Of a stretch of DNA of 31,702 nucleotides, positions 202-20,917 are shown piece after piece. The notes beneath the pieces were generated by a model, which had not been told where the DNA came from, made no database searches, and saw nothing but the letters and a program-made list of their open reading frames with translations. Source of the stretch: a virus; the IMG/VR virus record IMGVR_UViG_3300009011_000044, positions 1-31,702 of that record; one strand, given 5' to 3'. Position 1 is the stretch's first letter. Each line of letters begins with the position of its first letter. Position numbers and translations under genes: made by a program.

Positions 202-3200
202 TCACCCCAGATAGCCGAGCCGGACACGCAACACGTTGTTGGCGTCGTAGACCGAGACGTTTAGCGAGTTGATCACCAGCCGCCCCTGACCCGGGACGAT
301 ACCGTTGATCTCAAGCGTTCCGTCCTTGTTGAGAATCCAGCCTTGCTGGCCGGCGATGTAGTTGGTCGAGCTGATGTAGCTGCCAATCTTGGCGTTGGTG
401 ATGGTGCCGTCTGCAATAAACGCCGAGTTCATGAACACCTGGCCACCCTGCACCGCAAACGGCACCGAGATGGCGCCGCCGGCGATGGTGTTGACGATGG
501 CAAAGCGATCGGCGCTCACCAGGAACTGACTTTGCAGGCCGGCGCCGGTGTTCTCGATGCCCAAGCCGATGCCGGCTGCGACGTACTGCCCACCCGCCGT
601 TACCTGCATCTTCACCGACCACATGGTCGATAGCTTGCCGCTGGTGTCCGCGTAGGCGGTTGAGGTCTGTTGTATTGCGGCCGTGTTGTCACCGACCGTC
701 ACATTCAACTGTTCGATCTTCGTTGCCGTTGCGGATTGATTGGTGACCACCACTTCCGTCAGGTTAGTAACGTTGGCGGTGATTTGGGTAATGTTGTCGG
801 CATTGGAAGTAATCTTGGCGTCGTAGGTCTTCAGCTCTCGAGCTGTTGCCTCGGTTTCCGACGCCCTTACCTTCTCTTCCGTTGCGATCGCCGCAGTGCT
901 GCTCCACCCCTTCAAGGCGTCGGCCAACTCGCCCTCCCCGTCGTCGTCACGGAAAGAAGCGCGCAGAGCCTGGAACGCTGTCGCCTGAGCAGTGACCGCT
1001 CCGTCGAGCTCGGTGATCTCGGTGGTGTGGGTGGCCACCTGCTCGGCCAGACCGTTTGCTGTTTCGAGAAGGTCGCCCACGTCTGCCCAGTACGTCAGGT
1101 TTGGCGGTGGCGTATCGAGCGGAACAGGCAGCACAGCCTGATAGATGTGACCACCTTCGACGATCAGTTGCCCTTTCGTGTAAAGCAGCTCAGGGTCGTA
1201 GCCCTTCAGTCCGTCCAGCGCATCGATCTGATCCTGAAGCCCAGGGATTTTGTTGATCTCGTCCAGCAGGTCCTGACCGAGTTCGGTTTCACCAATTTGC
1301 CCGGCGATCATTTCCAGAATGGCCGATGCATCCGCGCTCGACTGACCCATCACTCCCAAGCCAACTGGGTAGAACGGCCCAATGTTGCCGGTGCGATCCA
1401 CCAGGCGCGCCCAAAAGAAGAACGTCACGCCAGCTCGAAGGCCCAGCATTGCGTACTCTTTTTGTGGATAGGCAAGATCGGTCAGCTTCGTCGCAGCTTC
1501 AAGGCTGGTCGATGCCCCGTACCAAAGTTCTGTCCGCTGCGTATCCTCCGCGCCATCTGGAAATCCCCAGCGCAGATTGATTCCGAACAACAACGGTGTG
1601 GCAAGAAGGTGAGTGACAGCCGGCGGAAGCCCGGTTTTCCCAAGCAAGTCAGTCAGCACCGAGTTGGTAGGGATGGATGAAACATTCATGGCGCTTACCG
1701 CGCGCACCCTGGCCAAGTACTGACCTGAGTAAATACCTCGCACGTCCACCGCCAACTCACCAGTGCGCGGAACCTTTATCCACTCCCGCGCACCCCATCG
1801 CCATTCAACGTCATACCCGACAGCGCCGGGGGCAGCATCCCAAGCGATAGTCATGTTGGTGACGGCAATGCCCTGCTCAATTACAACGTGCTGGCTGAGC
1901 AGCACCCGGGCCGGAGCCTCTTGTGTACCGATAGGAATGCCACTGATCGGGCGCGTGTCTACAACAGCACCAAAGTCGATTGCGTCGAACTTGCTCGGTT
2001 CATGCTGGATCACCTCGAGCTGGAACTGATGCCACTCGGGCCGGGTGACGTTGCGCACGTAAAACTGCATGACCTTCAGATCGTCGAAGTCGATCACCCA
2101 GCCGCATTCAGCCTCAGGCACTTCGCTGTAGTCGGCCATGACGGTGACGGCACGACCGGCAAACGACTTGATGACACGGCCTTCGGACTTCCCGCTCGGC
2201 AGGTTCAACATCAAGCGCGCACCGGTGGGAATGACCAGGTCGCGGTCGAGTGTTATTACCCGGCCATTTACTGCCGAGATGCGACCACCATTTGCTCGAC
2301 CTGCCAGCATCGGGTCGCCAACGGCGATCACTTGGCCTGGCTTGGGTATATGCCCATCCAGCCCTACACGGAAGGTGCCGCCGCGGGTTTGCAGTTGCTC
2401 AGTCAACAATGCCCACTGACCGGCACGCTGTGCCTGGCCGAGTGATGTACACCCAAAAGCATCGACGTCAAGCTCCCGCACTGAGCCCAACTCACTCAGC
2501 GCCTCGTCGTCGAACACCGGCTCCTTGTCCGTCTCAAAACCCTGAGCAGGGTTGTCCCACGACACCATGGCGTTGGTGTGTCGATCTCGCCAGCGAGTGC
2601 CTTCGTACTGAATGGAACCGTTGTTGAGGATCTGCGCAGGACTGTAGCTGAAGGCCGGATCCCCTGGCATATCTGCATTGACGACGATCTGGCTGCCGTC
2701 CCAGTAGGCCAGGCCGTGGAAGATTGAGGCGAGATCCTGAAGCACGGCATAGGCTTCGGCCTGCTTCTGGAAATAGAGGTTGCAGGTAAAGCGCGGCTCT
2801 TGGCCGCCCTTGCCGTCCGGGACCATCTGGTCGCAGTACTGAGCGATTCGGTACAACGACCAACGATCAACCATCGTCGCGTCAATGCGTTCGCCCAGCC
2901 CGTAATACGGGTGCAGCACCAGGTCGTAAAAGACCCAGGCAGGATTGTTGGTGTAGGCCTCTTTGAATGTCCCGTCCCATACGCCGTTGCTGGTGCCGGT
3001 CCCGCCGGTGGCGTAGGTGCGAGTTTCCGGGTTGTAGTTGGTAGGCACGCGCACAATGCGGCCGCGCATCAACACCGCGATCTTGGCGATATCGCCGCCG
3101 AACTGCTGGGCGTCATACTCAATGCAGCCAACCGACGTCAGCGGATATTCCTGATCGCTGTCGACAACCTCTGCAATGGCCTCGACGACCATGGCATCCT

Positions 3201-3822
3201 GCACCAGCGAACTGTTCGCTTCAGGAGTCAGGCGCCTGGCTCGGATCGTCCAGCGAGCGCCATCCGGTAATTCAATGCGGTGCGATCGCTCGTATTTGGT
3301 GATGTTCTTACGGTCGACAAACGAGGTCAGAACCTGAACATAGGGGCCGTTGTTGGTGGAGATATCCACGGCATAGTCGACGCGCACGCCGTTGATGTTG
3401 CCGCTGGCATCTTGGCTCTGAAGCTGTGGCCAGCTGAGGCGCAGACGCACCGCATCGATCATTGCGTTGTTGATGGTGTGCAGCCACGGGGCAGTGGTGA
3501 GCAACTCCTGCCCGACAGCGATTTCGTTGCTCGACTCGGAGACACCCTCAAGCCGCGGCTGATTAAGCTCTCCCGATCGGAACTGCCATTTCACACCTGG
3601 ATAATTGATGGTGCCGTCTTGCGCCTGAATGGGCGTGCCATCCAGACGCACAGAGCGCAGCCCATCTACCGGGCCTACGATCGGGCCCCAGCTCCACAGG
3701 TAAACAATGCGAGCAGTGGCGATTGATGGGACGCTGTTCGAAGCAATGCTCGGCTGTTTCTGTTTTGCCTGGCCGCCCTTGGCGCCCATCACCGACTGGC
3801 GTTTCTTCGCTACTGCGCCCAT
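202..3822 (-). CDS. J: Tail tip / host-specificity protein J (gpJ-like, central tail fibre)
   Basis: At 1206 aa this is the size expected of lambda gpJ relatives, which form the tip of the non-contractile tail and contact the host receptor. The N-terminal part (about residues 30-620) has the usual gpJ/phage-tip pattern, including a stretch around 290-330 rich in aromatic residues (WVFYDLVLHPYYGLGERI). A fibronectin-III-like region follows at about 635-830, then a coiled, repetitive section and a DUF1983-like C-terminus (about 980-1200) with the motif VSADRFAIVN. The start at 3822 has GGAG eight bases upstream. It is the last large gene of the tail operon, with a stem-loop separating it from gpI. 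Receptor specificity would reside mostly in the C-terminal third; the receptor cannot be told from sequence. Confidence 0.96.
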   Translation of the reverse strand: MGAVAKKRQSVMGAKGGQAKQKQPSIASNSVPSIATARIVYLWSWGPIVGPVDGLRSVRLDGTPIQAQDGTINYPGVKWQFRSGELNQPRLEGVSESSNEIAVGQELLTTAPWLHTINNAMIDAVRLRLSWPQLQSQDASGNINGVRVDYAVDISTNNGPYVQVLTSFVDRKNITKYERSHRIELPDGARWTIRARRLTPEANSSLVQDAMVVEAIAEVVDSDQEYPLTSVGCIEYDAQQFGGDIAKIAVLMRGRIVRVPTNYNPETRTYATGGTGTSNGVWDGTFKEAYTNNPAWVFYDLVLHPYYGLGERIDATMVDRWSLYRIAQYCDQMVPDGKGGQEPRFTCNLYFQKQAEAYAVLQDLASIFHGLAYWDGSQIVVNADMPGDPAFSYSPAQILNNGSIQYEGTRWRDRHTNAMVSWDNPAQGFETDKEPVFDDEALSELGSVRELDVDAFGCTSLGQAQRAGQWALLTEQLQTRGGTFRVGLDGHIPKPGQVIAVGDPMLAGRANGGRISAVNGRVITLDRDLVIPTGARLMLNLPSGKSEGRVIKSFAGRAVTVMADYSEVPEAECGWVIDFDDLKVMQFYVRNVTRPEWHQFQLEVIQHEPSKFDAIDFGAVVDTRPISGIPIGTQEAPARVLLSQHVVIEQGIAVTNMTIAWDAAPGAVGYDVEWRWGAREWIKVPRTGELAVDVRGIYSGQYLARVRAVSAMNVSSIPTNSVLTDLLGKTGLPPAVTHLLATPLLFGINLRWGFPDGAEDTQRTELWYGASTSLEAATKLTDLAYPQKEYAMLGLRAGVTFFFWARLVDRTGNIGPFYPVGLGVMGQSSADASAILEMIAGQIGETELGQDLLDEINKIPGLQDQIDALDGLKGYDPELLYTKGQLIVEGGHIYQAVLPVPLDTPPPNLTYWADVGDLLETANGLAEQVATHTTEITELDGAVTAQATAFQALRASFRDDDGEGELADALKGWSSTAAIATEEKVRASETEATARELKTYDAKITSNADNITQITANVTNLTEVVVTNQSATATKIEQLNVTVGDNTAAIQQTSTAYADTSGKLSTMWSVKMQVTAGGQYVAAGIGLGIENTGAGLQSQFLVSADRFAIVNTIAGGAISVPFAVQGGQVFMNSAFIADGTITNAKIGSYISSTNYIAGQQGWILNKDGTLEINGIVPGQGRLVINSLNVSVYDANNVLRVRLGYLG

Positions 3823-3842: not shown

Positions 3843-3863
3843 AAAAACCCGCCGAAGCGGGTT
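3843..3863 (-). terminator. Stem-loop with U-tract between gpI and gpJ
   Basis: In the leftward direction a 7-bp stem (AACCCGC / GCGGGTT) is closed by a TTCG loop and followed by five T residues. It begins 19 bases after the gpI stop codon. It has the form of an intrinsic terminator inside the late operon, so J needs antitermination, read-through or its own promoter. Confidence 0.8.
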
Positions 3864-3881
3864 ATGGGTGTTGCCGAGGAG

Positions 3882-4469
3882 TCAGATGTTGTCTTGCGTG
3901 TAGATGCCCCCAGACTCAACGGCGCCGCCGATCTCCCGTTCGCCATACAGCAGCGGGTACGGATTGCCCTGGGCGATGGTGGTTACAGCGCTGCCGAAGC
4001 CGTAGCTCGGGTTGTTACCGTCTTCATTTTTATCGCTGGTGTTGGCCTTGGTCGTGGGGGATAGCATTTGCACCACACCACCCAAGCCAACCGCGGCGCC
4101 GGCAGCTAGCAGGCCCATGCCCAAGGTCGACGTCGTGCCGCCGGTGAACAGGCCTGCAACGACCAATGCCACGCCAAGCAAGGTCTGGAACATGCCAGCC
4201 TGCTTGCTTCCTTGGATGATCGGCATGATGCGGATCGCACTTGGCCCTGCCGACTTGAGGTCAAGCTCCTGCTCACCTACGTTTTTCTCGTCAATGAACA
4301 CCGCAAACACCAGCCCGCGCTCCTCGGCGCTGCGAAGGAACTGCTCGAAGCCCGGCTTCATGTTGCACAACGCGCTCATGGCGTCGCGGAAGCCATACAG
4401 GTCGAGCAGGTACTCACGACCAAAGCGTTTTCCAAGCACGCCGCCCAGCTTGATGGTGGTCATCGTCAT
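3882..4469 (-). CDS. I: Tail assembly protein I (gpI-like)
   Basis: The 195-aa protein has the lambda gpI layout: an N-terminal ubiquitin-like domain (about 1-85, starting MTMTTIKLGGVLGKRFGR) followed by a hydrophobic, Gly/Ala-rich segment (about 95-135, GVALVVAGLFTGG and GLLAAGAAVGLGG) and a short polar tail. gpI takes part in tail-tip assembly and is not thought to remain in the finished virion. The gene lies between gpK (four-base overlap, 4466-4469) and gpJ, exactly the lambda order K-I-J. A U-tract hairpin follows its stop codon. The alternative start two codons in (MTTIKLGG) is equally possible. Confidence 0.93.
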   Translation of the reverse strand: MTMTTIKLGGVLGKRFGREYLLDLYGFRDAMSALCNMKPGFEQFLRSAEERGLVFAVFIDEKNVGEQELDLKSAGPSAIRIMPIIQGSKQAGMFQTLLGVALVVAGLFTGGTTSTLGMGLLAAGAAVGLGGVVQMLSPTTKANTSDKNEDGNNPSYGFGSAVTTIAQGNPYPLLYGEREIGGAVESGGIYTQDNI

Positions 4470-5248
4470 GGTCTGTAATCCTTATGCCTCAAGATCAACT
4501 TCACGCGGTTCGCCTGCGACCAGCCGAAGATTTCCCGGCACGCCAGGCGCCCGGCCATGTGGTGGTAAATGAACGGGCCCGATCCACCGAGCTTTGGTGC
4601 CGGCTCGCTGACAAACGCGGGCTCGTCGCCCAGATAGATCACGGCGTGATTGGGATGGAAGCATGGGCGGCCGAGTGTCGGAACCTGCAACACCAGCATG
4701 TCACCGCGCTGCGCAGTCTCCACCTGGTAGAAACCGGTGGCCTTGAAGTTATCTTCGTAAAGGCTGGGGCCGGCCTCTTCCTCCCACCATAGGTCATGGC
4801 GTTCGAAGTTCGGCAGCACCAGCCCGGCCTCGCGGGCGTACCAGTCACGGCAAGCAGCCCAACAGTCTAGAAGTCCATGGGAAAAGTCGCGGGCCAGCAG
4901 CGGCGCTTGGAAACCAGTGGGCTTGAACCATTCGAACTCACCACCCGGCCAGCCCACGATCCCCCAAGGCAACTCATGCAATTCGCAGCTGACGCGATCG
5001 GCCATGCTCGGCGCTGGAGCTTTGTCGGGATGGCTGTGAATGATCGCCACGACTACCCCGCGATCTTCGGCGGCCGCCAGGTCTCGCTCATCGATCTGGA
5101 AATTCTCCCGGGCGGTCTTTGCTTTGTTGCCGCACGGAACGTAAACGCGGCCGGCCTCAGTGCTGACCAGCACACCGCAAGCCTCTGCCGGGTAGTCGCG
5201 CTCGGCATGAGCACGGATCTCTGCCTGCAATTTCTGATTGATCCGCAT
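4466..5248 (-). CDS. K: Tail tip protein K (JAMM peptidase plus NlpC/P60 domains)
   Basis: I place the start at 5248 (MRINQKLQ, 260 aa) because GAGGT precedes it by six bases and the gpL stop ends at 5251; an upstream in-frame ATG at 5335 lies inside gpL. The N-terminal half is a complete JAMM/MPN domain: Glu22, then His71-x-His73, Ser81 and Asp84 in the exact H-x-H-x7-S-x2-D spacing. The C-terminal half is an NlpC/P60 cysteine-peptidase fold with Cys129 (in LLDCW) and His201 (in NHAVIYLG). Lambda gpK has the same two domains and acts in tail-tip assembly, possibly also trimming peptidoglycan during DNA entry. All key residues are present, so both activities could be intact. Confidence 0.95.
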   Translation of the reverse strand: MRINQKLQAEIRAHAERDYPAEACGVLVSTEAGRVYVPCGNKAKTARENFQIDERDLAAAEDRGVVVAIIHSHPDKAPAPSMADRVSCELHELPWGIVGWPGGEFEWFKPTGFQAPLLARDFSHGLLDCWAACRDWYAREAGLVLPNFERHDLWWEEEAGPSLYEDNFKATGFYQVETAQRGDMLVLQVPTLGRPCFHPNHAVIYLGDEPAFVSEPAPKLGGSGPFIYHHMAGRLACREIFGWSQANRVKLILRHKDYRP

Positions 5249-5250
5249 GA

Positions 5251-5952
5251 TTACCTCGAAGATGCGATCAGGCTCGCGCCCATGGATCCGCCAAATCGGC
5301 GAGTGTTGCCGCGAAGCTTGCAGCTGCTCCACCAACCGCCACAGCGATCGAGAGCAGGGTTGTCCGTGGGCTCATTCTTTTTCGTGAACATCACGGTACC
5401 GGTGTAGGCACAGGCTTCGCCCCGGTAACCGCCCCGACAGGCCCAGCGGCAGAGCTTGGTGATCTGCTGCGAGGGCAGCATCTGTCCTTCCATGTCCGTG
5501 GGTCCGGACAGATCGAAGGTCAGCGACTCGAATGTTTCAGCGGTCTTCTGCTCGATGTACCAGAGGTTGATCTTGCTCTGGTTGCTGGCAGTGGGATTGC
5601 CGTCGGGGAAGTTGGCTGCGTCCAGGAAGTGGCGGAACGTTTCGATGACGCGCACTTTGGCCCCGGCAAGATCGCGGAACTGCAAGCACAACGCGGTCAG
5701 TGCGCCGCGCACGCCACCAAGTTCGTTGGCCACTTGCAAGGTGGGCGAAGCAGGCCGGCCATCGCCGCGAATATCGAAACCCTTCGCCGTGATCTGAAGC
5801 GGTGAATACAGCTGGCCTTGCCAGATGATGTCCCCTTCTTGAGCATGGCCGTGAAAGCGCCAGAGGTTCGCGCCCAGGCGCGTGGCGTCCAGCTCGAACA
5901 AGCGGATCTGATTACCTGGCTCAAGCTTTTGGATGTCTGCGTTGTAATTCAT
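5251..5952 (-). CDS. L: Minor tail protein L (Fe-S tail tip protein)
   Basis: The start at 5952 (MNYNADIQKL, 233 aa) has GGAG five bases upstream; an extension to 5994 would run through the preceding stem-loop and is unlikely. Lambda gpL is a tail-tip hub protein that binds an iron-sulfur cluster through C-terminal cysteines. This protein has five cysteines in that region (about residues 168, 172, 181, 204 and 211), in the pattern LCRWACRGG ... EACAY ... DRCGGWW ... SCK, which fits the family. It sits between gpM and gpK as in lambda; its stop is directly followed by the gpK start. Confidence 0.93.
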   Translation of the reverse strand: MNYNADIQKLEPGNQIRLFELDATRLGANLWRFHGHAQEGDIIWQGQLYSPLQITAKGFDIRGDGRPASPTLQVANELGGVRGALTALCLQFRDLAGAKVRVIETFRHFLDAANFPDGNPTASNQSKINLWYIEQKTAETFESLTFDLSGPTDMEGQMLPSQQITKLCRWACRGGYRGEACAYTGTVMFTKKNEPTDNPALDRCGGWWSSCKLRGNTRRFGGSMGASLIASSR

Positions 5953-5959
5953 AAGGCTC

Positions 5960-5989
5960 CAGAAACAACAAACCCCGCACTTGGCGGGG
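5960..5989 (-). terminator. Stem-loop between gpM and gpL
   Basis: Leftward, a 6-bp GC stem (CCCCGC / GCGGGG) with a 5-base loop is followed by a T-rich run (TTTGTTGTTT). It starts 18 bases after the gpM stop and ends just before the gpL ribosome-binding site. It looks like a terminator or attenuator inside the tail operon. Confidence 0.7.
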
Positions 5990-6006
5990 CTCATCCACTT
6001 GGAAAA

Positions 6007-6351
6007 TCAGGGTGTGTAGACCTGCTTGAAGGCGAAGGTCAGCGTGAACAAGCCATTGCCCAAGGGTCTGGGCTTGTACCCGTTGCATTTATAGCGACCC
6101 TGGATTCCTCCCGGCGGCGTCCAAAGGAACGACTTGTAACCCTCGTGACGATCAAGAAAAGCCCAAACCAGCGGCAACTCATCGCCCTCCTCCTGCGATC
6201 CGGTATGCGTCAGGTTCCACACCTGACTCTTGGTGTTGATGCCGATTCCGCCGGACTGGACATAACCGTCGCCGAACTCGTTTTCCCAGGTGCGCTGGGA
6301 GACATCGCCATCGGCGCCGAGCTGTACGTCGTAAATGAATACCTCGGCCAT
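6007..6351 (-). CDS. M: Minor tail protein M (gpM-like)
   Basis: The 114-aa protein matches the gpM family in size and pattern: an early acidic beta-strand region (WENEFGDGYVQSGGIGIN), a central WNLTHTG and a C-terminal stretch ending LTFAFKQVYTP. gpM is a small ring-forming tail-tip protein that links the tape measure and tail tube end to gpL. Its ATG overlaps the tape-measure stop codon by one base (TGATG), so translation is probably coupled. A stem-loop follows the stop codon. Confidence 0.93.
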   Translation of the reverse strand: MAEVFIYDVQLGADGDVSQRTWENEFGDGYVQSGGIGINTKSQVWNLTHTGSQEEGDELPLVWAFLDRHEGYKSFLWTPPGGIQGRYKCNGYKPRPLGNGLFTLTFAFKQVYTP

Positions 6352-9300
6352 CAGTTCCGCCTCCAGAGTCGGCCGCCTTGGCGCATTTCCCGATCAAGGA
6401 ACTGACCGAAGCTGGACTCAAGGCCGGCACTGATTGATTCGCCTTGCATTTGCGCTTGCTGCTCGCTCATGCCTGGCTGCGCCTGCACCGTCACCGGAGC
6501 GTTGAAGATAATGGGCGCCGGCCCGCCCGATGAAGAATCACCGCCACCGCTGCCGCCGGACGAACTGATCATCGCGGCCTTCCCGTTACTCATTGCCTCC
6601 AGTGTTCCAACGCCTATCCGCGCTGTTGCCTCAGAGTTGAACACGTACTCACCACGGTGGACCGGCCCGGCGATTTCGTCGCGTCGGCCGTTGCCGGTGT
6701 AGCCCCCCTCCATGAAGCCCACGCCGGACATAGCAGTCATGCCCACCGCCGAAGCGAGCGGACCTGTGACGCTCAGTGCCGTAGCCATTGCCGCAGGCGC
6801 AGCCGCTGGGCCGATGATCGGGATCGCAGCTGTCGACGCATAGGCGTTCAGTCCGGCCTGTAGCGACATCGCTGCCGCATTGGCGCCGAGGGTTCCCGCC
6901 GCGGTTGCCTGAGTGGATTTGCCGACCAGCAATTGCACGCCCTGATAAATCAACCACTGAGCAGCCATATCGCCCAGGGCCTTGAGCATCGACTTAGCGA
7001 AGTTGCCGACCATGTCGCCCAGCGCGTCGCTGGCATCTTCCGCGCCGCTGGCCACATCCGAGAAGAACGTGCCCAGGTCGCTGGTGGCCGTACCAAGCGC
7101 GCCAGACGTGAAGTCGGCGGCGATCTGCGAATAGTCCCGCGCTGCATCGGCATAGTTTGCCCACGCTTCGTTGACGCCATTCATCCAGTTAACTTGCTGC
7201 TCGTCCGTAGCGGCGTAGAAGTTTTCCTGCGCCACCAGGCGCTTGTTCAACTCGTCCTGTAAAACCTGAGTTTCGCTGGCATAGAGCTCCGGCGTGATCT
7301 GCCCGGTGTTGCGCTGCTCGTTGAGGCTTACCACATCAGCGGCATACTTCTGCCGCATGGCCAGGTCGGCGCGCATCCGGTCGCGGGCTTTGTCGCCCAT
7401 CCCAATGCCGGCCAGCTCTTGGTCGAAACCGTCCTTTGTGGTTTGGGTGGTGAGGCCTTGGGCATTCTTGAACGCCGTGAGTTTCAGGTCGTCTTCGTTG
7501 GCCTTCTTCAGCTTGTTCAGCGCATCGAGCTCGGCAGCCATGCCCATGAGCTTTTTCTTTTGCGCCTCGCTCAGCTTGCCGAGCTTTCCTTCCTGCAACT
7601 CGAAGGACAGCTTCATGGCCTCCGTTGCGTCTTTCTGCTTGTCGCCCGTGGTGTTGAGTAGCTCGATCTGACGCTTGTAGCCTTGCTCGGCGGTATCGAA
7701 TGACTTGAGCTGCTGCTTCGCGGAAGAGCTCGCTTCGGAGGTGTTCTTCTTCAGCGCCTTGGCCGCTGCATCATCGGCGGCCTTCTGCGCATCCTTGGCC
7801 GATGCCGCGGAGCGGATGGCGACAATCATCCCTTCCGTTAAATCTGTGTTTTCAGCAATAAAGCGATTGGCTGCCTCAAGGCTGGTTTTGTCCTGAGCAG
7901 CACCCAGCTGTTTCTGCAATTGCTCAAGATATTTCTGCCCGGCTTGTTCGGCGGCGGCGACTGCAGCGTTGTTCTTGCCTCTCGCCGCGGTATTGATGTC
8001 AGTTTCGCCGGTCAGTTCTGCGAGTGTCTGTCGCTGCTTATCAAGGACAGAGGTGAGATCTGCAACCTTGATCTGCCCAGTTTCAATGGACTGCGCCATC
8101 TCCTCAGTAACGCCTGGAATCAGGCGGACTTGGTCTGCTACTGATTTCCAATCTACTGCCTGACCCGTGGCAGAGTCGGCAACCGCCTTGTTAACAATGT
8201 CCATTGCCGATTGAAATTCGGCAGGGAGCGGGACAATGCCAGCCATAAAACCGGAAGCGCCAGCCAGCCCGGCATTTGTCAGACTTGCCTGAAATTCAAA
8301 AGCAATCGAGCTCGCAGCGCCGGAGAGGTCTTTTACTGTATCCGCAATGGAAGTGCGCAATTCGCGCAGCGTGACCGACTGAGTTGCTCGATTTAGTTTA
8401 TTGAAACGCTCAGCCAACTTGTCGAGGGGATCATTCAGGTCGCCGAGCTTCTGCTCAAGAACGCTAGTGTTGTCGCGCAGCGTTAGAAAGGCAGTGGCAG
8501 CGCCGATCGCGAGTGATGCGATACCAAGCGGTCCGCCTAGGACGCCCATGATTACACCGGTGGTCCGGCTCAAGCCAGCTTGAGCGGCTGCGACTACGGT
8601 TGTTGCGCGAGCCTCAACCAGGCGCGCCTCGGCAAGCTGTATCGACATCTGCGTCTGAACTGCCGTACCACGTGCAGCAACCGCTTCTTTCTGAGCGAGA
8701 AATACCGATGTCTGTGCTTTTTGTTGCTCAGCTTCCGCGGCGAGCAGAACTGCTGCCGCCTGAGCTTTCCTTGCAGCGGCATCTTTGAATGCGGAGTAAA
8801 TGGAAACCGCCGCGGAATCTGCTGCGCTCACACCGTAACGGGTCAAGGCGGCAATGGCTGCAACGATAGCGATGTCAGCAAGCGTTTCAAAATTGTCGCC
8901 CAGTTTTCCGATGCCGCTCGCCAGAACCCCGGCGAAATCAGTCGTTTCATTCAAGCGGCCGATGTACACAGTGAAGGCATTCGAAAGGTTCTGCACAGCA
9001 TCACGAACAGCAACGCTCATGATGTCCGCCAATACACCATTGGCTTCGGCGGATTTTTGCAAACCCTCGGTAAGAATATCGAGACCCAACTTGCCCTGAG
9101 CACCTAGGCTCCGGATTTCTTCAGCTGTTTTACCGGTGGACTTCGCGATCGTGTCAACTACGGTCGGCATCGCCGCAAGAATTGACTGCCAGCCGTCAGC
9201 CTCAACCTTTCCGGTCTGAAGCGCTTTTGAATAAGCATCGATTGCCGAACTGGCTTTATCTGCAGATGCAGAGTTGGTCACCAAAAGAAAGCTGAAGCTG

Positions 9301-9749
9301 TCCATCACATCCAGCGCCTGGCTGGTGTTGTAGCCCATGGACTTCAGGCTATCCGAAGTTCTGATGTACAGCTCTTGCGCTTCAGCGAGTGGTCGGTAAG
9401 TGCGTTTAGCAGTGTCCAGCAACCTCTGCTGGACTAAATCGTACTCGCCGACACTGCTGGTCGCGATTCCTATACGGTCAGACATTTGACCGTAAGAGTC
9501 TGCCGCTTCTAGAATCTTGCCGATTGAAGCAGCGCCAATGGCTCCTGCGAGTGCGCCTTTAATCAAGTCGCTTGCGTTTTGCGCCCGCTCGCCAGCTCGA
9601 TCAAACGCATCATCGATATGACCAAGATTTTTATCAATCTTTCCCGACGCCTGTGCGACGCTGGAATCTGCACGGGCCATCTCCTGGCGCAGTTGTGCAG
9701 TGGTCGCCTCAATGCGGACCAGCATCCCCTGTACGTCGGTATCTGCCAT
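6351..9749 (-). CDS. H: Tape measure protein (gpH-like)
   Basis: This 1132-aa protein sets tail length and is delivered through the tube during infection. The N-terminus (about 1-250) has the lambda-type tape-measure domain, followed by long helical, coiled-coil-rich stretches with many Ala, Gln and Lys residues. A hydrophobic segment near residues 395-425 (GVIMGVLGGPLGIASLAIGA) could insert into the host membrane. The C-terminus contains the conserved YTGNGRRDEIAGPVHRGEYV motif seen in many lambda-type tape measures. It lies between the tail chaperone genes and gpM; the usual arrangement is broken only by the secreted ORF at 9805-10176. By the rule of about 1.5 angstrom per residue the tail would be somewhat longer than lambda's, which is an estimate only. 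Confidence 0.95.
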   Translation of the reverse strand: MADTDVQGMLVRIEATTAQLRQEMARADSSVAQASGKIDKNLGHIDDAFDRAGERAQNASDLIKGALAGAIGAASIGKILEAADSYGQMSDRIGIATSSVGEYDLVQQRLLDTAKRTYRPLAEAQELYIRTSDSLKSMGYNTSQALDVMDSFSFLLVTNSASADKASSAIDAYSKALQTGKVEADGWQSILAAMPTVVDTIAKSTGKTAEEIRSLGAQGKLGLDILTEGLQKSAEANGVLADIMSVAVRDAVQNLSNAFTVYIGRLNETTDFAGVLASGIGKLGDNFETLADIAIVAAIAALTRYGVSAADSAAVSIYSAFKDAAARKAQAAAVLLAAEAEQQKAQTSVFLAQKEAVAARGTAVQTQMSIQLAEARLVEARATTVVAAAQAGLSRTTGVIMGVLGGPLGIASLAIGAATAFLTLRDNTSVLEQKLGDLNDPLDKLAERFNKLNRATQSVTLRELRTSIADTVKDLSGAASSIAFEFQASLTNAGLAGASGFMAGIVPLPAEFQSAMDIVNKAVADSATGQAVDWKSVADQVRLIPGVTEEMAQSIETGQIKVADLTSVLDKQRQTLAELTGETDINTAARGKNNAAVAAAEQAGQKYLEQLQKQLGAAQDKTSLEAANRFIAENTDLTEGMIVAIRSAASAKDAQKAADDAAAKALKKNTSEASSSAKQQLKSFDTAEQGYKRQIELLNTTGDKQKDATEAMKLSFELQEGKLGKLSEAQKKKLMGMAAELDALNKLKKANEDDLKLTAFKNAQGLTTQTTKDGFDQELAGIGMGDKARDRMRADLAMRQKYAADVVSLNEQRNTGQITPELYASETQVLQDELNKRLVAQENFYAATDEQQVNWMNGVNEAWANYADAARDYSQIAADFTSGALGTATSDLGTFFSDVASGAEDASDALGDMVGNFAKSMLKALGDMAAQWLIYQGVQLLVGKSTQATAAGTLGANAAAMSLQAGLNAYASTAAIPIIGPAAAPAAMATALSVTGPLASAVGMTAMSGVGFMEGGYTGNGRRDEIAGPVHRGEYVFNSEATARIGVGTLEAMSNGKAAMISSSGGSGGGDSSSGGPAPIIFNAPVTVQAQPGMSEQQAQMQGESISAGLESSFGQFLDREMRQGGRLWRRN

Positions 9750-9765
9750 GGTTTTCTCCGGACAT

Positions 9766-9788
9766 AAAAAAACCCGCCGGAGCGGGTT
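9766..9788 (-). terminator. Intrinsic terminator after the secreted ORF, before the tape measure gene
   Basis: Leftward, AACCCGC and GCGGGTT pair around a TCCG loop and are followed by a long T run (seven consecutive T). It starts 17 bases after the stop of the secreted ORF and lies 17 bases before the tape-measure start. The stem is identical to the one before gpJ. Confidence 0.85.
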
Positions 9789-9804
9789 GAATCAATTCTG
9801 TTAG

Positions 9805-10176
9805 TTACATCTGAACGTCTTTTAACACTTCTTTTCTGGCTGCCAATTCGCACTCTGAATAAACTTTATCGGAAAGTTTGTTCGCAGACTCACTCGATGC
9901 AAACACCCTCCCGGCTTCGACTTTTAACCCTTCAGAAGATTGGACCTTTGTAAGTACATCGGCCAACGTCTTTCCCGCGTCACGCTGCCTTGCAAGCTCG
10001 GCTGTAATGTTGGAGCGCATTCGGCACTCCTCCGCAGAACGGAAGGCGATATCAACTTTCTGTATGGTCCTGAGCGTCATGAAAAGCTTATTCGCGTCGA
10101 CGTTTTTTGTGTCATTTGCATTCACACAAAAGGGTATTACAAGGGCGAGCACCCCTACGCCAATCAAAATGCGCAT
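9805..10176 (-). CDS. Secreted small protein of unknown function between tail chaperone and tape measure
   Basis: I choose the ATG at 10176 (MRILIGVGVL, 123 aa), with AAGGA directly upstream, because it gives a clear type I signal peptide: a positive start, a hydrophobic core and the cleavage motif VNA just before residue 21. The mature part is about 103 aa, helical and charged, with two cysteines (C51 and C109) that could form a periplasmic disulfide. Nothing in it resembles a virion protein. It interrupts the normal G-T-H tail gene order, is visibly richer in A/T than its neighbours and carries its own terminator, the marks of a moron gene. Possible roles are superinfection exclusion or host-envelope modification, but these are guesses from location and export signal. 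Confidence 0.8.
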   Translation of the reverse strand: MRILIGVGVLALVIPFCVNANDTKNVDANKLFMTLRTIQKVDIAFRSAEECRMRSNITAELARQRDAGKTLADVLTKVQSSEGLKVEAGRVFASSESANKLSDKVYSECELAARKEVLKDVQM

Positions 10177-10246
10177 GTCCTTATCCTCGAGCAAAGGACA
10201 TCACTTTACATGAACACCCAAAGATCGCACCTTCGCCAGCGAGGCA

Positions 10247-10827
10247 TTAAGCGGCCTGACGGCCTGTCAGCGCCTGACGCAGCTTGTCCGCTACAGCCGA
10301 TGGTGAAGGCTTGCCCGTCTTGGGTTTCGTCTTGCCGCCGCCGAAGGGGTTGGTCATCTGGGCCCATTCGATCCTGGCATCCATGGCGAGAAACAGTTCG
10401 GGGATCGGCGTAGTCCAGGCCAGTTCGGGCGACCAGCCAAGCCACCCGGTGGCCACTGCGTATAGCCGGTCGACGTAGCTGCCGTCCTCGACAGCGCTTA
10501 CGCCTTCGCCGGCTGATTCTTTCCCGCCTGAGCGCCCTTCGGATTGTAAAGCGCCACCAGGTAAGCGTTGAGTTTGACGGACACCTCAAGGACGCCTTCC
10601 TGCCATACCTGCTCAGGAATTCCCTCGGCGCCCTTCCCGCTCAGGCCGGCGCCGCTGGCAATGATCACCGCGCAACCATCGACACTCAGGGCATTGATTG
10701 CTTGGGATGCTCCGCGCAGGCCACCGAAGTGAGCCTCGATCGCGCGCACGGCGCCGAGGGTTGGCTGCAGGGTGTAGGTTTCGCCATCCAGAACGATGTC
10801 GACCGTACCGTAAAGGGTCTTGCTCAT
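10247..10827 (-). CDS. GT: Tail assembly chaperone gpG-T, made by -1 frameshift
   Basis: This is the frameshifted long product of the gpG gene. Ribosomes would slip one base back at GGGAAAG (10519-10525), leave the gpG frame and continue to the stop at 10247, giving a 193-aa protein. The T part contains WLGWSPELAWTTPIPELF followed by MDARIEWAQMTNPF, a pattern typical of T domains in siphophage tail chaperones. The -1 frame is open from the slippery site through the whole T region, which I checked by translation. In lambda the G:G-T ratio controls tail assembly: the G part coats the tape measure and T recruits tail tube protein. The coordinates cover both frames. Confidence 0.92.
10498..10827 (-). 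CDS. G: Tail assembly chaperone gpG
   Basis: The 109-aa unshifted product starts MSKTLYGTVDIVLDGE and has the small alpha/beta look of the gpG family (LQPTLGAVRAIEAHFGG). It is made in excess over gpG-T and coats the tape measure during tail assembly; it is absent from the virion. The gene lies between the tail tube protein gene and the tape measure, as expected. It ends at 10498 in the zero frame, 19 bases after the slippery heptamer, so the two products differ only at the C-terminus. Confidence 0.92.
   Translation of the reverse strand: MSKTLYGTVDIVLDGETYTLQPTLGAVRAIEAHFGGLRGASQAINALSVDGCAVIIASGAGLSGKGAEGIPEQVWQEGVLEVSVKLNAYLVALYNPKGAQAGKNQPAKA
10519..10525 (-). promoter_or_regulatory. -1 ribosomal frameshift site GGGAAAG
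   Basis: Read leftward, the heptamer G GGA AAG lies in the correct phase relative to gpG (zero-frame codons GCG GGA AAG) and is the same heptamer used by lambda G-T. After slippage the new frame runs open to 10247. I see no obvious strong downstream stem-loop immediately after it. Confidence 0.9.
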
Positions 10828-10846
10828 TCGTCAGATCCTTAAGAGT

Positions 10847-10862
10847 CGGGGCCGAAGCCCCG
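10847..10862 (-). other. UUCG hairpin after the tail tube gene, no U-tract
   Basis: A perfect 6-bp stem (CGGGGC / GCCCCG) closed by a TTCG loop starts five bases after the tail tube stop codon. No T run follows, so it is more likely an mRNA-stabilising or processing element than a terminator. Confidence 0.75.
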
Positions 10863-10866
10863 CAGG

Positions 10867-11364
10867 TTAAGCGGCTGCAGCCGGGAGAATTTCCAGAATG
10901 TCGGAGTTGATGCCGATGGTGACGTTGCGGCGAACCACGTTGTCAGCACCGCCGGCGGCAACGGTGTTGTTCATCACCTTTCCACGCAGATAGAACGTGG
11001 TCGGCAGCAACGCCGGCGTGGCATCAGGATCGCCATCGTTCAGGGTAATCTTGATGTTGTAGTCACCCTTGCTGCGGTCCTTGTGAGCAACCTTCAGCTT
11101 GGCCTGGCCCAGGTCGCCGTTGTCGAGACCGACAGCCAGGGTCAGGTCACCCGCATCAGCGGTACCCTTGTACTTGCGCACACGGCCATCGCGCAGCGAG
11201 GTGAATGTCACGGAGCTGAACGTGTCACCGAACTCGCCCAGGTCTTCCACTTCGCCGATATCGACGTAGGTGTCAGCCTTGTAGAGCGCTTCAGTGTCCG
11301 CGCCGTTCTTGCTACCGATACCGATTCGGCAGCCGGCGGCGGTGTTGAGGTTGTCATCGGCCAT
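10867..11364 (-). CDS. V: Major tail tube protein (gpV-like)
   Basis: The start at 11364 (MADDNLNTAAGCRIGIG, 165 aa) has GGAGG in the right place; the frame is open further upstream, but that part lacks a start signal. The sequence has the features of siphophage tail tube proteins: an early IGIGSKNG stretch, a central GEFGDTFSSVTFTSLRDGRVRK region and a repeated beta pattern with KYKGTADAGDLTLAVGLDN. It would polymerise around the tape measure to form the tube. It is placed after the tail terminator and before the chaperones, as in lambda and HK97. Its stop is followed by a very stable UUCG hairpin, fitting a highly expressed structural gene. Confidence 0.92.
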   Translation of the reverse strand: MADDNLNTAAGCRIGIGSKNGADTEALYKADTYVDIGEVEDLGEFGDTFSSVTFTSLRDGRVRKYKGTADAGDLTLAVGLDNGDLGQAKLKVAHKDRSKGDYNIKITLNDGDPDATPALLPTTFYLRGKVMNNTVAAGGADNVVRRNVTIGINSDILEILPAAAA

Positions 11365-11419
11365 GGGGGTTCCTCCAAAGGCGCATTGGATAAAGCCGCG
11401 GGGCGGCCGGTGTTGGGAA

Positions 11420-11806
11420 TTAGTGGGTGGTGATAACTCGGACCGTGATCGATCCCTGGTACGTGACGCCGTCAGCATCGCGCTGGGCGTCGGCTTGCTC
11501 GACTCGGACTGATACAGCCCGACCTACTTCCAGCGGCAAGCGGCGTTCATCTAGAGCAGCAACAATCTCGCCATTGATTCGCTTCACCTCGGCCTGACCG
11601 TGGGCATCAGACCAGACCGACAGGTAGATCAGGCGCTGCTCGCGCTTGCGTCCGGCGATCGGGCTGATGTTCGCCGAGATCTCCCGGTCGAACGAAATGT
11701 ACGGCATAGCAGTGTCCATCGGAGCGCCGTCGTACACCGGACAGGAGACTTCAGCCTCCAGGCGTGCGAACAAGGCCTCTTGCAATGCAACGGATGGATC
11801 AGCCAT
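11420..11806 (-). CDS. Tail terminator / completion protein (DUF3168 family)
   Basis: With the start at 11806 (MADPSVALQEALFARLEAEV, 128 aa) the protein has the DUF3168 pattern: an N-terminal helix, then CPVYDGAP, a MPYISFDRE strand and a C-terminal YQGSITVRVITTH. DUF3168 proteins correspond to the lambda gpU-type tail terminator that caps the tube and joins it to the head. The ATG overlaps the end of the gp10-like gene by eight bases. It precedes the tail tube gene, the normal order. A longer frame to 11878 lies wholly within the upstream gene and is rejected. Confidence 0.9.
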   Translation of the reverse strand: MADPSVALQEALFARLEAEVSCPVYDGAPMDTAMPYISFDREISANISPIAGRKREQRLIYLSVWSDAHGQAEVKRINGEIVAALDERRLPLEVGRAVSVRVEQADAQRDADGVTYQGSITVRVITTH

Positions 11807-12377
11807 CGGTAATGCCCTCACTTGCTTTGCGCAGCGTCCGGGCCACGGCTGCCTTGATGTTTGCCAGAGCAAACTCACGGTTGACCGCCATTGCGGGCCG
11901 GAGCCAGGGGTGTGCCGGTCGTGCCGGGATATCTGGGTACTTCCCGAAGAAATGCGAGCCGTCGCTTTTGTTTTTTGTTGGGCGCCGGTTCAGGGCATTG
12001 CGGCGCCCTTTCAGTTGGGACTTGTCCCGGTTGTTGGTGTGCTCCCCGCCTGCGGCACTGATGTCAGCCCGGCGGTAAATGGAGCCGCTGTAGCCTTTTG
12101 TCCCGTACTCGAAAAAACGCAGATAAAAGAAACGGCGCGTGTCCCTTTTTCCCCTGATACCGATCTGCGCATCCAAACCGCTTTTCGAAACAAAAACCTG
12201 CAGTGCGGCCGCAGCAGCGCCGGTATCTTTCGGAACGAGCTGCCGCATTGTTTCCAGAATCTTATCGGCCGCCTCCTGCATGGCAGGTGCCAATTCGTTA
12301 TCCATGGTTTCGTGAATATTGCGCAGCGTCTTCCGAAGTTTGAAGTCGCCGGACAACCGGGAACGGCGAGCGGCCAC
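11799..12377 (-). CDS. HK97 gp10-like tail/neck protein
   Basis: The 192-aa protein starts MAARRSRLSGDFKLRKTL and shows the HK97-gp10 family pattern: an amphipathic N-terminal helix, LVPKDTGAAAAAL (the family's typical PxDTG motif), then a FEYGTKGY motif and the C-terminal PARPAHPWLRPAM, where the PWLRPA element is characteristic. Members are minor tail or neck components that help complete head-tail joining. It is longer than many members (commonly 120-160 aa) because of a basic insertion around residues 110-140 (NNRDKSQLKGRRNALNRRP). It sits between the head closure and tail terminator genes. Confidence 0.9.
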   Translation of the reverse strand: MAARRSRLSGDFKLRKTLRNIHETMDNELAPAMQEAADKILETMRQLVPKDTGAAAAALQVFVSKSGLDAQIGIRGKRDTRRFFYLRFFEYGTKGYSGSIYRRADISAAGGEHTNNRDKSQLKGRRNALNRRPTKNKSDGSHFFGKYPDIPARPAHPWLRPAMAVNREFALANIKAAVARTLRKASEGITDG

Positions 12378-12380
12378 GGT

Positions 12381-12551
12381 TCACTCCTTGGCCGGTTCGG
12401 CCTTCTTGGGGATTGCTTGCGGTTCATCCGCTGCGCGCACCAAGCCACGATTGATAAGGTCGGCGCCGGTCTCGGCGCTAACGGCGAACTCTTCACCTTT
12501 GACCCTTTCACCAACGGCGCCTGACAGGATGCCCAGGGCAATAACCTTCAT
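12381..12551 (-). CDS. Small hypothetical protein between head closure and gp10-like genes
   Basis: A 56-aa frame runs from an ATG at 12551, with GAGGTG seven to eight bases upstream, to a stop at 12381, three bases before the gp10-like start. It begins MKVIALGILSG, has a compact GERVKGEEFAVSAETGADL centre and ends in a Lys/Pro/Glu-rich tail. It fills the gap between its neighbours precisely, which supports a real gene. Short proteins with the same look occur at this place in HK97-like phages; the function is unknown, and it could be a small head-tail accessory or capsid-binding protein. Confidence 0.7.
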   Translation of the reverse strand: MKVIALGILSGAVGERVKGEEFAVSAETGADLINRGLVRAADEPQAIPKKAEPAKE

Positions 12552-12560
12552 GATTCACCT

Positions 12561-12896
12561 CTACGGATTGGGTACGTTTGAACAAAGCAATCGAAGCATG
12601 TCGCGCTCGTTGTTGGGCAGATGGGCCTCGATCAGGTAAGTGGTGGTGGCGATTCCACCAACCATTTCCACAAGGCGGTTACCGACGACAACATCCTTGC
12701 GCGGACGGAGTCGAATCTCAGCGCTGACAATGGCCTTCAGTTGCTCGGCCACCGGTGCAACACGCCCCGTAGGTAATGTGATCTCAGCCCACAACTTGCC
12801 GATTTCGACCCATGTGGTGTCGAAGCCGCCAGTCTTGTTCTTCGTCAACACCGGTTTCAGCATCATGCACCGATGACGCAATGGCCCGGCTCTCAT
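12561..12896 (-). CDS. Head closure protein (phage head-tail joining family)
   Basis: The likely start at 12896 (MRAGPLRHRCMMLKP, 111 aa) forms an ATGA overlap with the stop of the upstream connector gene. The protein has the pattern of the SPP1 gp16 / HK97 head-closure family: basic N-terminus with RHR, then GGFDTTWVEIGKLWAEI, a strand-rich middle with ISAEIRLRPRKD-like sequence (here VSAEIRLRPRKD) and the late DMLRLLCSN. Such proteins form the ring under the connector that closes the filled head and offers the tail-binding surface. Position between connector and gp10-like protein fits. Confidence 0.9.
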   Translation of the reverse strand: MRAGPLRHRCMMLKPVLTKNKTGGFDTTWVEIGKLWAEITLPTGRVAPVAEQLKAIVSAEIRLRPRKDVVVGNRLVEMVGGIATTTYLIEAHLPNNERDMLRLLCSNVPNP

Positions 12897-13210
12897 ACAT
12901 TCACCCAGCGGTGGGGTTTCCACAGGGCATTTGTAGCCATGGGAAGTTCCGCAGTAATGGTGCCGATTACCACGGTTTCGCGACTACCGTACCAATGGCC
13001 AATCAGCATGAGCGCGCCCTGCTTGATTGATTTGGTCATGAAAAGCGCATTGCCGACAGGATCAGGCAGAACTCCATCCGGGTCGACCAGCGTCCGATTG
13101 GTCCAGGTCTCAAACGCACTGAGGGCTGCATCCGTGTAGCCCTGAATCAGTGCATCTTCATCGTCATGGTCGACCCGCAAGTGAGCCTTGACGATGACCA
13201 GATCAATCAC
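12893..13210 (-). CDS. Head-tail connector protein (gp6-like)
   Basis: I place the start at a GTG at 13210 (reading MIDLVIVKAHLRVDHDDED, 105 aa), because family members commonly begin close to this LVKAHLRVD motif and it overlaps the upstream stop by eight bases; an ATG at 13264 would add 18 residues that look like out-of-frame sequence. The helix-rich body (YTDAALSAFETWTNRTL) and the late GALMLIGHWYGSRE are typical of the gp6/gp15 adaptor family that binds beneath the portal after DNA packaging. It lies directly before the head closure gene. The start is not certain, because no strong ribosome-binding site is visible. Confidence 0.88.
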   Translation of the reverse strand: MIDLVIVKAHLRVDHDDEDALIQGYTDAALSAFETWTNRTLVDPDGVLPDPVGNALFMTKSIKQGALMLIGHWYGSRETVVIGTITAELPMATNALWKPHRWVNV

Positions 13211-13478
13211 CAGATGGAACCAGTGCCAGCAAGGCTTCCTTGTTGGCCGATGGATCGAAGTCAATGCCCTTGGCGGTGAGCCATTCCTTCAACACTGGAA
13301 CCTTCATTTTCTTCGGATCCGCTTCTGTAGAGCCCCCCACCAAGGTGGCACACTCCAAGTGCTCCACTGCTACGAGTGCCAAACGCTCGGAAGCTTCTTG
13401 CTCGCCGACTTCGACTTGAATCACTTCATTGCCGTCAACCGCAAAGGGAAACGGCTTGGTCACATTGATTGTTGGCAT
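13203..13478 (-). CDS. HeH/LEM-like domain protein downstream of the capsid gene
   Basis: The 91-aa protein starts MPTINVTKPFPFAVDGN, has a central acidic region and ends in a short helix-extension-helix pattern (VPVLKEWLTAKGIDFDPSANKE then LLALVPSG, quoted in parts), which resembles the HeH/LEM domain found in many small phage structural-region proteins. The domain is thought to bind DNA or proteins, but its role in this position is not established. The gene lies between the capsid gene, with a strong hairpin before it, and the connector gene, which overlaps its stop by eight bases. A capsid decoration or DNA-binding accessory is possible. Confidence 0.75.
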   Translation of the reverse strand: MPTINVTKPFPFAVDGNEVIQVEVGEQEASERLALVAVEHLECATLVGGSTEADPKKMKVPVLKEWLTAKGIDFDPSANKEALLALVPSGD

Positions 13479-13495
13479 GATGCTCTCCTGCAGGC

Positions 13496-13515
13496 CGGGC
13501 GCCCGAAGGCGCCCG
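13496..13515 (-). other. UUCG hairpin after the major capsid gene, no U-tract
   Basis: An 8-bp perfect stem (CGGGCGCC / GGCGCCCG) with a TTCG loop starts seven bases after the capsid stop codon. No T run follows. It is the most stable hairpin I see in the window and probably protects or processes the capsid mRNA 3' end rather than terminating transcription. Confidence 0.75.
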
Positions 13516-13521
13516 CCACGA

Positions 13522-14724
13522 TTACGCTGCGCTGAGGGTCAGAACCTTCACAGCCTGAGAGTCGACCAGCATGCCGCCGACGCGCTTGGTGGTGTAGAAG
13601 CCAACGTATGGCTTATTGGTGTACGGGTCGCGCAGCACACGGGTACCGATGCGATCCACAATGGTGTAGGCGCGCTTGAAGTCACCAAAAGCAATGGCAT
13701 TGGCATCGGCAGCGACATCTGGCATGTCTTCGTTTTCGACGATGCCATAGCCCAGCAGGCTCGAAGGAGCCCCAGCTTCCAAGCCCGGGCGCCACAGGTA
13801 GTTGCCTTCACTGTCTTTCAGCTTGCGCGCATATGCGACGGTCAGGTTGCCCATCATGAACTTGCCGTTAGCCCGGTAGCCGGCCTTCAACGCGTGAATC
13901 AGATCGATGAGTTTGTCGCCATTGAAGGCACCTGCCGCGCCCGAAATCAGCTTTTGCAGCGAGCCGAAAGCGCGCTCATCGTCGGACGTGGTCAGCAACG
14001 GATACGCCAACAGACCTTTCGGCTTGTTGGTGCCGTTACCCAAAAGGAAAGCGTTGCCTTCTTTTTCGGAGAACTCGCGCGCGACCTCTTCGTTTAGCCA
14101 GGTTTCGGCGTTAAAAAAGATGTCGTCCAGACTGGTTTGAGTGGCCTGGGGGTTGGAGTAAATCTCGCCCATGAAGGCAGAGATCTGCCCGAGGGTAGGC
14201 GTGCCCGTCGCCGGCCGTGGGTCGGTTTCACCAACCCAGCCAGACCCCGCGCCACCCAGACCGACCAGACGCTTGTAGTCTGGCGACCCGACGGTGATCT
14301 GGTTGCATACCTGGCGCATCGGCGAGGTATCGCGGAGCAGCTGGATGATATTGCGGTCCATTTCTTCAGGTACCGCATAGCCACCGTCGGCCTCGGTGCC
14401 AATCTGCAAAGCCTTCGCTTGCAGGTCGCCCAGGCCAGTATCGACACCTTTGCGCACAAACTGCAGAAACGCGCTCTTGTGCTCGCTGGCTGCTTTGGTG
14501 CCGGTGCCGTCCGGACGCTTCAACGCCAGCAGTTCTTTTTCCAGATCGCTTTTCAGTGCATCCAATTCGCCAAGCTTTTCGTTTAGCGTATCGACTTGGC
14601 CGGACAGCTTGCCCTTTTCGGCTTCCAGGCCATCAATGCGTTTGTCGTTCTTTTCTTTGAACTCGTCGAACTTCTTGCCCAAGGCTTCAGCGACTTGTTC
14701 CACATCTTTTAATTCAACAGCCAT
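13522..14724 (-). CDS. Major capsid protein (HK97 gp5 family)
   Basis: The 400-aa protein has an N-terminal coiled coil of about 75 residues (KKFDEFKEKNDKRIDGLEAE and following), matching the delta/scaffold domain that HK97-type capsid proteins lose to the prohead protease. The main HK97 fold follows from about residue 100, with GGYAVPEEMDRNIIQLLRD, the E-loop region around 160-190 and ISAFMGEIYSNPQATQTSLDD, NAETWLNEEVAREFSEKEGN and FLLGNGTNKPKGLL as typical motifs. It ends FYTTKRVGGMLVDSQAVKVL, also typical. It is next to the protease and portal genes in the standard order. Whether the shell is cross-linked as in HK97 cannot be judged here. Confidence 0.97.
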   Translation of the reverse strand: MAVELKDVEQVAEALGKKFDEFKEKNDKRIDGLEAEKGKLSGQVDTLNEKLGELDALKSDLEKELLALKRPDGTGTKAASEHKSAFLQFVRKGVDTGLGDLQAKALQIGTEADGGYAVPEEMDRNIIQLLRDTSPMRQVCNQITVGSPDYKRLVGLGGAGSGWVGETDPRPATGTPTLGQISAFMGEIYSNPQATQTSLDDIFFNAETWLNEEVAREFSEKEGNAFLLGNGTNKPKGLLAYPLLTTSDDERAFGSLQKLISGAAGAFNGDKLIDLIHALKAGYRANGKFMMGNLTVAYARKLKDSEGNYLWRPGLEAGAPSSLLGYGIVENEDMPDVAADANAIAFGDFKRAYTIVDRIGTRVLRDPYTNKPYVGFYTTKRVGGMLVDSQAVKVLTLSAA

Positions 14725-20887: not shown

Positions 20888-20917
20888 AAAAAAACCCGAC
20901 TCAGAGGTCGGGTTTTT
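20888..20917. terminator. Bidirectional terminator between convergent genes
   Basis: CCCGAC and GTCGGG pair around a 6-base loop, with a run of seven A on the left and five T on the right, so it can act in both directions. It separates the rightward 65-aa gene from the leftward 44-aa gene. Confidence 0.88.

Follow-up and report, generated by a model that had tools for sequence, protein, structure and literature searches.

Hairpins in the late operon

The IMG/VR virus record IMGVR_UViG_3300009011_000044, analysed here over its full 31,702 nucleotides (the window), carries a late operon whose intercistronic gaps contain conserved RNA hairpins, some followed by a U-rich tail and some not. The operon lies wholly on the minus strand, as do all of its genes and hairpins described below, and runs from terminase, portal, protease, capsid and connectors through tail tube, tail chaperone, a cargo open reading frame (ORF) and tape measure to gpM, gpL, gpK, gpI and gpJ. 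The window is a lambda/HK97-like Pseudomonas siphophage; its nearest annotated phage is Pseudomonas phage VW-6S, and close relatives of its capsid occur in Pseudomonas genomes. To the right of the late operon are replication genes, a CI-like repressor and an integrase, which indicate a temperate phage.

The initial annotation listed five strong stem-loops directly after stop codons, and all five are present where it placed them. Behind the major capsid gene (13522..14724; PHROG 10, E=3.4e-95) is an 8-bp stem with a UUCG loop, CGGGCGCC-ttcg-GGCGCCCG (13496..13515), which begins 6 nt past the stop at 13522 and has no U-tract. The tail-tube (major tail protein) gene (10867..11364; PHROG 158, E=1.4e-27) is followed 4 nt past its stop at 10867 by CGGGGC-ttcg-GCCCCG (10847..10862), again with no U-tract. 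Between the tail chaperone and the tape-measure gene (6351..9749; assigned from position, length and VW-6S synteny) lies the "secreted ORF" (9805..10176), recognised as a cargo (moron-like) gene by its position and by the varying content of this slot in relatives. Its hairpin, AACCCGC-tccg-GCGGGTT (stem 9771-9788; 9766..9788 with tail), is located 16 nt past the stop at 9805, runs into TTTTT and forms the 3′ end of the cargo slot, immediately upstream of the tape-measure ribosome-binding site. The gpM-like minor tail gene (6007..6351; PHROG 14, E=8.6e-30) is separated from the gpL-like minor tail gene (5251..5952, with the start taken at 5952 and given as 5994 in the ORF list; PHROG 18, E=5.5e-101) by AGCCCCGC-caagt-GCGGGGTT (stem 5971-5991; 5963..5991 with tail), 15 nt past the stop at 6007 and followed by TGTTGTTT (tail in the feature table, UGUUGUUU). 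The fifth hairpin, AACCCGC-ttcg-GCGGGTT (stem 3846-3863; 3843..3863 with tail), lies 18 nt past the stop at 3882 of the gpI-like tail assembly gene (3882..4469; PHROG 32, E=1.5e-67), before the gpJ-like central tail fibre gene (202..3822; PHROG 31, 1312 bits), and its stem is followed by the U-tract TTTGCATTT (TTT in the feature table).

Four of these five loops belong to the UNCG class, as had been claimed, the exception being the CAAGU pentaloop of the gpM hairpin. The accompanying statement that only the capsid and tube hairpins lack a U-tract needs one amendment: a U-tract directly follows the pre-tape-measure and gpI stems, and the gpM tail is U-rich but interrupted. A sixth, weaker hairpin, absent from the first list, is GGCCGC-ccc-GCGGCT followed by TTATCC (11394..11408), in the gap between the tail-terminator and tube genes. 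The tube-gene leader that contains it (11365-11408, TTTATCCAATGTGCCTTTGGAGG) is conserved above most other leaders of the operon and beyond the needs of a ribosome-binding site.

All six structures have the GC-rich hairpin of an intrinsic terminator. In dinucleotide shuffles of each gap, a hairpin as good as the observed one arose with p=0.006-0.027 for each of the first five and with p=0.22, which is not significant, for the sixth in the window alone; across the operon just 8% of 55-nt windows reached a comparable hairpin score. Other single-sequence measures were less informative. A generic promoter and terminator scan found 21 elements against 20.2 expected, Rfam gave no match at gathering thresholds, and the fold energy of single gaps seldom reached significance (z about -0.7 to -1.7; gpM -3.3). 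Because single-sequence folding is weak, conservation was used as evidence, and at the level of sequence comparison it is decisive that the hairpins are real.

Conservation and U-content

Relatives were gathered with the capsid, tube, gpL and secreted ORF, tblastn anchoring served to extract the sequence behind each stop, and conservation was counted over distinct spacers per gap. Throughout the Pseudomonas clade a hairpin is found after capsid (59/59), tube (67/68), gpM (62/62) and gpI (54/57) and in the gap between tail terminator and tube (62/63). Before the tape measure it is present in 83 of 84 distinct relatives and is of the same type regardless of the cargo gene. The alignment of related phages proposed in the initial annotation therefore revealed hairpins that are kept behind the same virion genes in hundreds of relatives while their flanks diverge. 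Late-operon gaps longer than 20 nt in this clade are the hairpin gaps; other adjacent genes mostly overlap or abut.

Covariation is clearest in the capsid stem, where 34 cells are changed on both sides, none of 500 shuffles matches the observed covariation, and pairing stands at 91%, compared with 30-51% when one strand is slid as a control. The gpM stem is paired in 99% of cells, with 9 both-side-changed cells. Covariation of the tube stem is modest (7 such cells) because the stem is nearly invariant. These counts are inflated by sequence relatedness, and the case for covariation is instead made by distinct stem types that recur: GGGCGCC/GGCGCCC, GGGTGCC/GGCACCC and GGCCGGC/GCCGGCC. UNCG loops, with all four bases represented at N, close 44/59 capsid and 57/67 tube hairpins of the clade.

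The hairpins separate by U-content and by distance from the stop. With a U-run scored as at least four U within 9 nt of the stem, none is found in the capsid (0/59) or tube (0/67) hairpins, and these are consequently not filed as canonical intrinsic terminators. U-runs follow 96% of gpI and 99% of pre-tape-measure hairpins, 13% of those in the gap before the tube gene and 16% of gpM hairpins, which yet have 6 U's in 8. The stem begins 6 nt past the capsid stop and 4 nt past the tube stop, and 12-18 nt past the stop in the other gaps; for the pre-tape-measure set, which was anchored at the start of the following gene, the offset does not express distance from a stop. The assignment of U-less and U-rich hairpins to particular genes is thus a constant feature of the Pseudomonas clade. 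The capsid and tube hairpins moreover have the anatomy of a 3′ stabiliser, a stable U-less hairpin placed within an operon after a gene needed in excess.

U-tract hairpins stand at sites of variable gene content. In all 84 distinct relatives the gap before the tape measure (9750-10247 in the window) is a variable cargo slot, measuring 279-1460 bp from chaperone stop to tape-measure start with the chaperone frameshift extension included. The secreted ORF and its hairpin (9788-9766) have the arrangement of a moron, an extra gene between conserved late genes that is followed by a terminator; a consensus scan listed no sigma-70-type match just upstream of this gene. PHROG and Pfam profile searches with the secreted ORF gave no match, and a protein scan recovered a single relative (L261). 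In the neighbouring tail chaperone gene, a lambda-type slippery sequence, G GGA AAG, occurs at 10519-10525, and the -1 frame is open for 92 residues (GKESAGEG...GRQAA), as expected of a gpG/gpGT pair.

A second insertion site lies between gpI and gpJ, where 13 relatives (L104, L105, L109, L111, L114, L116, L125, L140, L148, L153, L196, L201 and L225) carry 481-610 bp with the largest ORF on the opposite strand; these inserts are possibly reverse cargo genes. They fall between the gpI stop and the hairpin, which adjoins gpJ in at least 11 of the 13, the exceptions being L105, with a different hairpin, and L111, with no clear one. The idea that the U-tract hairpin travels with the cargo gene is thus unsupported in this gap. 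HK97 and HK022 have a like arrangement, with morons and reverse morons, and the gpI-gpJ hairpin context of lambda (GTCATTTATGGAG) is nearly identical to that of the window (GCATTTATGGAG).

Hairpins in other phages

Two further lineages, N15/lambda-type and HK97-type, were scanned. Every capsid gene has a hairpin in both (48/48 each), with a U-run in 25% of the lambda/N15 and 73% of the HK97-family cases. N15-type tube genes have one in 42/57 sequences, 4 nt past the stop, with the stem CGGGGC/GCCCCG, mostly GNRA loops and no U-run (0/42); among 20 HK97-type tubes, 7 clear hairpins were found, again without a U-run (0/7). GNRA loops close 28/48 HK97 capsid hairpins and 23/42 N15 tube hairpins. 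The U-less hairpins have no defining U-tract and bear exchangeable UNCG and GNRA tetraloops, and loops that vary within RNA tetraloop classes argue for a structure that acts as RNA. In the leaders of gene J, a U-run is present in 97-98% of hairpins of the N15/lambda and HK97 lineages.

The window shares with HK97/N15-type phages a syntenic late operon and its set of hairpins, in the capsid, tube, pre-tape-measure and pre-J gaps. The HK97 record (NC_002167) marks putative terminators behind the major head protein, on both sides of the major tail protein, between the cargo gene and the tape measure, and ahead of I and J, which are the gaps of the window except that between gpM and gpL; HK97 has additional hairpins near the portal gene and before I. 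Its capsid hairpin combines a GNRA loop with UUUU, whereas the capsid and tube hairpins of the window are U-less and have UNCG loops. In N15 (NC_001901), putative rho-independent stem-loops are marked after the D-like protein, capsid and tube and before J, and the tube hairpin has the same stem as in the window at the same 4 nt from the stop; its loop is GCGA (GNRA) rather than UUCG, and N15 has no counterpart to the cargo slot ahead of the tape measure. A terminator is predicted at the capsid end in YuA, and one stands immediately behind the major capsid gene in T7 (Tphi, by annotation) and in LUZ100, where it is strong and transcript data show it (PMC10134795), although these phages differ in having a phage-encoded RNA polymerase and a local capsid promoter, and T7 has a U-tract. 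Since terminators have been marked or predicted at such places in HK97, N15, YuA, T7 and LUZ100, the layout is established rather than new, and its description as overlooked in the initial annotation was wrong. What is added here is the conservation evidence, the split into two types and the rejection of the rule that hairpin type follows protein copy number.

Outside phages, the closest anatomical parallels are malE-malF, the puf operon and a set of E. coli operons (Dar and Sorek 2018), where a strong U-less hairpin follows an abundantly needed gene within a polycistronic message. Their function is shown by RNA data, whereas the match in the window is anatomical only, and most of the E. coli cases, unlike those in the window, sit within the next coding region.

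Possible functions of the two types

From the observed structures, conservation, covariation, positions and U-content we infer each functional step of the following proposal, in which the operon contains two working types of conserved intercistronic RNA hairpin: U-rich intrinsic terminators and U-less barriers to 3′ exonucleases. We consider this reading, built on sequence comparison, to have slightly better than an even chance of being correct. The hairpins of the first type, which have a U-rich tail and stand before the tape measure, gpL and gpJ, would be intrinsic terminators placed ahead of structural-gene leaders and at entry slots for cargo genes; they most likely halt stray or cargo-promoter transcription in the lysogen and would largely be read through by late transcription. 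Those of the second type, which follow capsid and tube, have no U-tract and almost abut the stop codon, would not be canonical intrinsic terminators. They most likely fold after the last ribosome departs and block 3′-5′ exonucleases after downstream cleavage, so that the capsid and tube messages would outlive the rest. In E. coli, Dar and Sorek (PMC5927463) document 3′ structures without a U-tract, malE-malF among them, that shield the operon genes lying upstream, and by analogy a barrier of the malE-malF kind is the simplest fit for the U-less hairpins, with translational insulation as a live rival.

Several points weigh against this proposal. The capsid type is not U-less everywhere, because HK97- and lambda/N15-type capsid hairpins often carry some U's (mean 4.4-4.6 of 8). 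The tube hairpin is evidently dispensable, because the lambda tube gene V, the D3 tube gene and many HK97-type tube genes have no such structure. Read-through of the first type is an assumption, since no Q-type antiterminator was recognised in the window by PHROGs or Pfam. Finally, Sampson et al. reportedly assigned the differences in lambda late expression to translation initiation in 1988, which leaves less for mRNA stability to explain.

The initial annotation had instead proposed that hairpin type follows copy number, with U-less hairpins raising the abundant proteins and the ratio of tail-tip proteins set by partial termination at U-tract hairpins. This rule holds gene by gene in the Pseudomonas clade, and tube hairpins are U-less in the N15 and HK97 families as well. 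It fails elsewhere. Protein D of lambda/N15 roughly matches the capsid protein in copy number, yet its gene is followed by a hairpin in 56/57 sequences and all 56 of these have a U-run, with a mean length of 7; many HK97-family capsid hairpins have U-runs too. In SPP1 the pattern is opposite to that of the window, although the hairpins again lie right at the gene ends: terminators with U7 tails are listed at 8775-8815 for capsid gene 13, whose end is at 8777, and at 11,255-11,304 for the longer tube gene 17.1*, whose end is at 11,279 (PMC6316719, Table 2). The tail-tip part of the rule is weakened further because lambda and N15 have a U-tract hairpin directly ahead of the capsid gene, and HK97, HK022 and D3 have one directly ahead of the tube gene, positions at which termination would starve the most needed proteins, so that late attenuation is hard to envisage, and because in the Pseudomonas clade the pre-tape-measure hairpin forms the 3′ end of a cargo slot of variable content. 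Terminators that are effective in the lysogen and passed by late transcription would fit better. We thus reject the rule as stated and regard it as improbable; no study relating hairpin type to copy number in phages was found in the open-licence literature. The pattern that survives is narrower: the tube hairpin is U-less and stop-proximal in three Gram-negative lineages, and the capsid hairpin is U-less in the Pseudomonas clade.

A further alternative is that all of these hairpins are intrinsic terminators that differ by degrees in strength and serve solely to stop stray transcription in the lysogen, the U-less ones being weak or decayed members with no separate role. The putative-terminator labels on the capsid and tube hairpins of HK97 and N15 would agree with this, as would the terminators of T7 and LUZ100 and the canonical U-tract hairpins found at the same place in distant capsid-gene relatives (L079, L080, L081 and L092). 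However, compensatory changes and stable tetraloops, with the U's consistently absent, are not what a decayed terminator would be expected to show, and tube hairpins lack U-runs in three lineages. Moreover, a terminating ribosome would probably cover a hairpin only 4-6 nt from the stop, and we judge graded termination to be unlikely as the whole explanation. Under translational insulation, another alternative, the hairpin would occupy the stretch from the stop codon to the ribosome-binding site, block re-initiation by ribosomes coming off a highly translated upstream gene and leave the following ribosome-binding site accessible. The hairpin fits into this space in every gap, the gaps are short and of constant length, at about 40 nt behind capsid and tube, and the upstream genes are presumably the most heavily translated. 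Insulation leaves the U-rich class and the cargo slots unexplained, though, and low-expression neighbours overlap with no insulator, which fits the idea without proving it; we give it a low probability, a little above that of the copy-number rule. A role at the DNA level, with short conserved palindromes serving as homologous junctions for the exchange of phage modules, appears highly improbable. It would account for stems that are more conserved than their flanks and for modules that differ on either side, capsid relatives often lacking the same tail module, but capsid stems diverge through compensatory changes instead of remaining the same, the loops follow RNA tetraloop classes, and the elements lie directly after stops inside one operon.

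The two-type reading can be extended, tentatively and at less than even probability, to the lambda/HK97 group of siphophages: a conserved and dedicated RNA element, capped by a UNCG or GNRA tetraloop and lacking a U-tract, would stand 4-7 nt past the stop of the tail-tube gene (in Pseudomonas phages, of the capsid gene too) and act as a decay barrier that prolongs the tube message within one long late transcript. That such a transcript yields capsid and tube subunits by the hundred and only a few copies of the tail-tip proteins is usually credited to translation initiation; if the proposal is true, a U-less tetraloop hairpin at the capsid and tube stops adds mRNA decay as a second layer. The annotation "putative terminators" lumps the U-tract hairpins at cargo slots and leaders with the U-less hairpins after capsid and tube, and the two classes should be kept apart.

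Three other features were noted. In the gap between D and capsid of lambda/N15 relatives (L263, L267), GCCGC-NNNN-GCGGC-U7 is kept in 56/57 distinct sequences, and its loop varies freely, unlike the tetraloops of the capsid and tube hairpins. The first gene after the capsid hairpin in the window (13203-13478) encodes a HeH/LEM domain protein (Pfam PF12949), for which the PHROGs label "Arc-like repressor" is probably misleading. Upstream of the lysis genes, at 20890-20917, a strong 11-bp hairpin, AAAAACCCGAC-ctctga-GTCGGGTTTTT, is flanked by A's and U's on both sides and is terminator-like.

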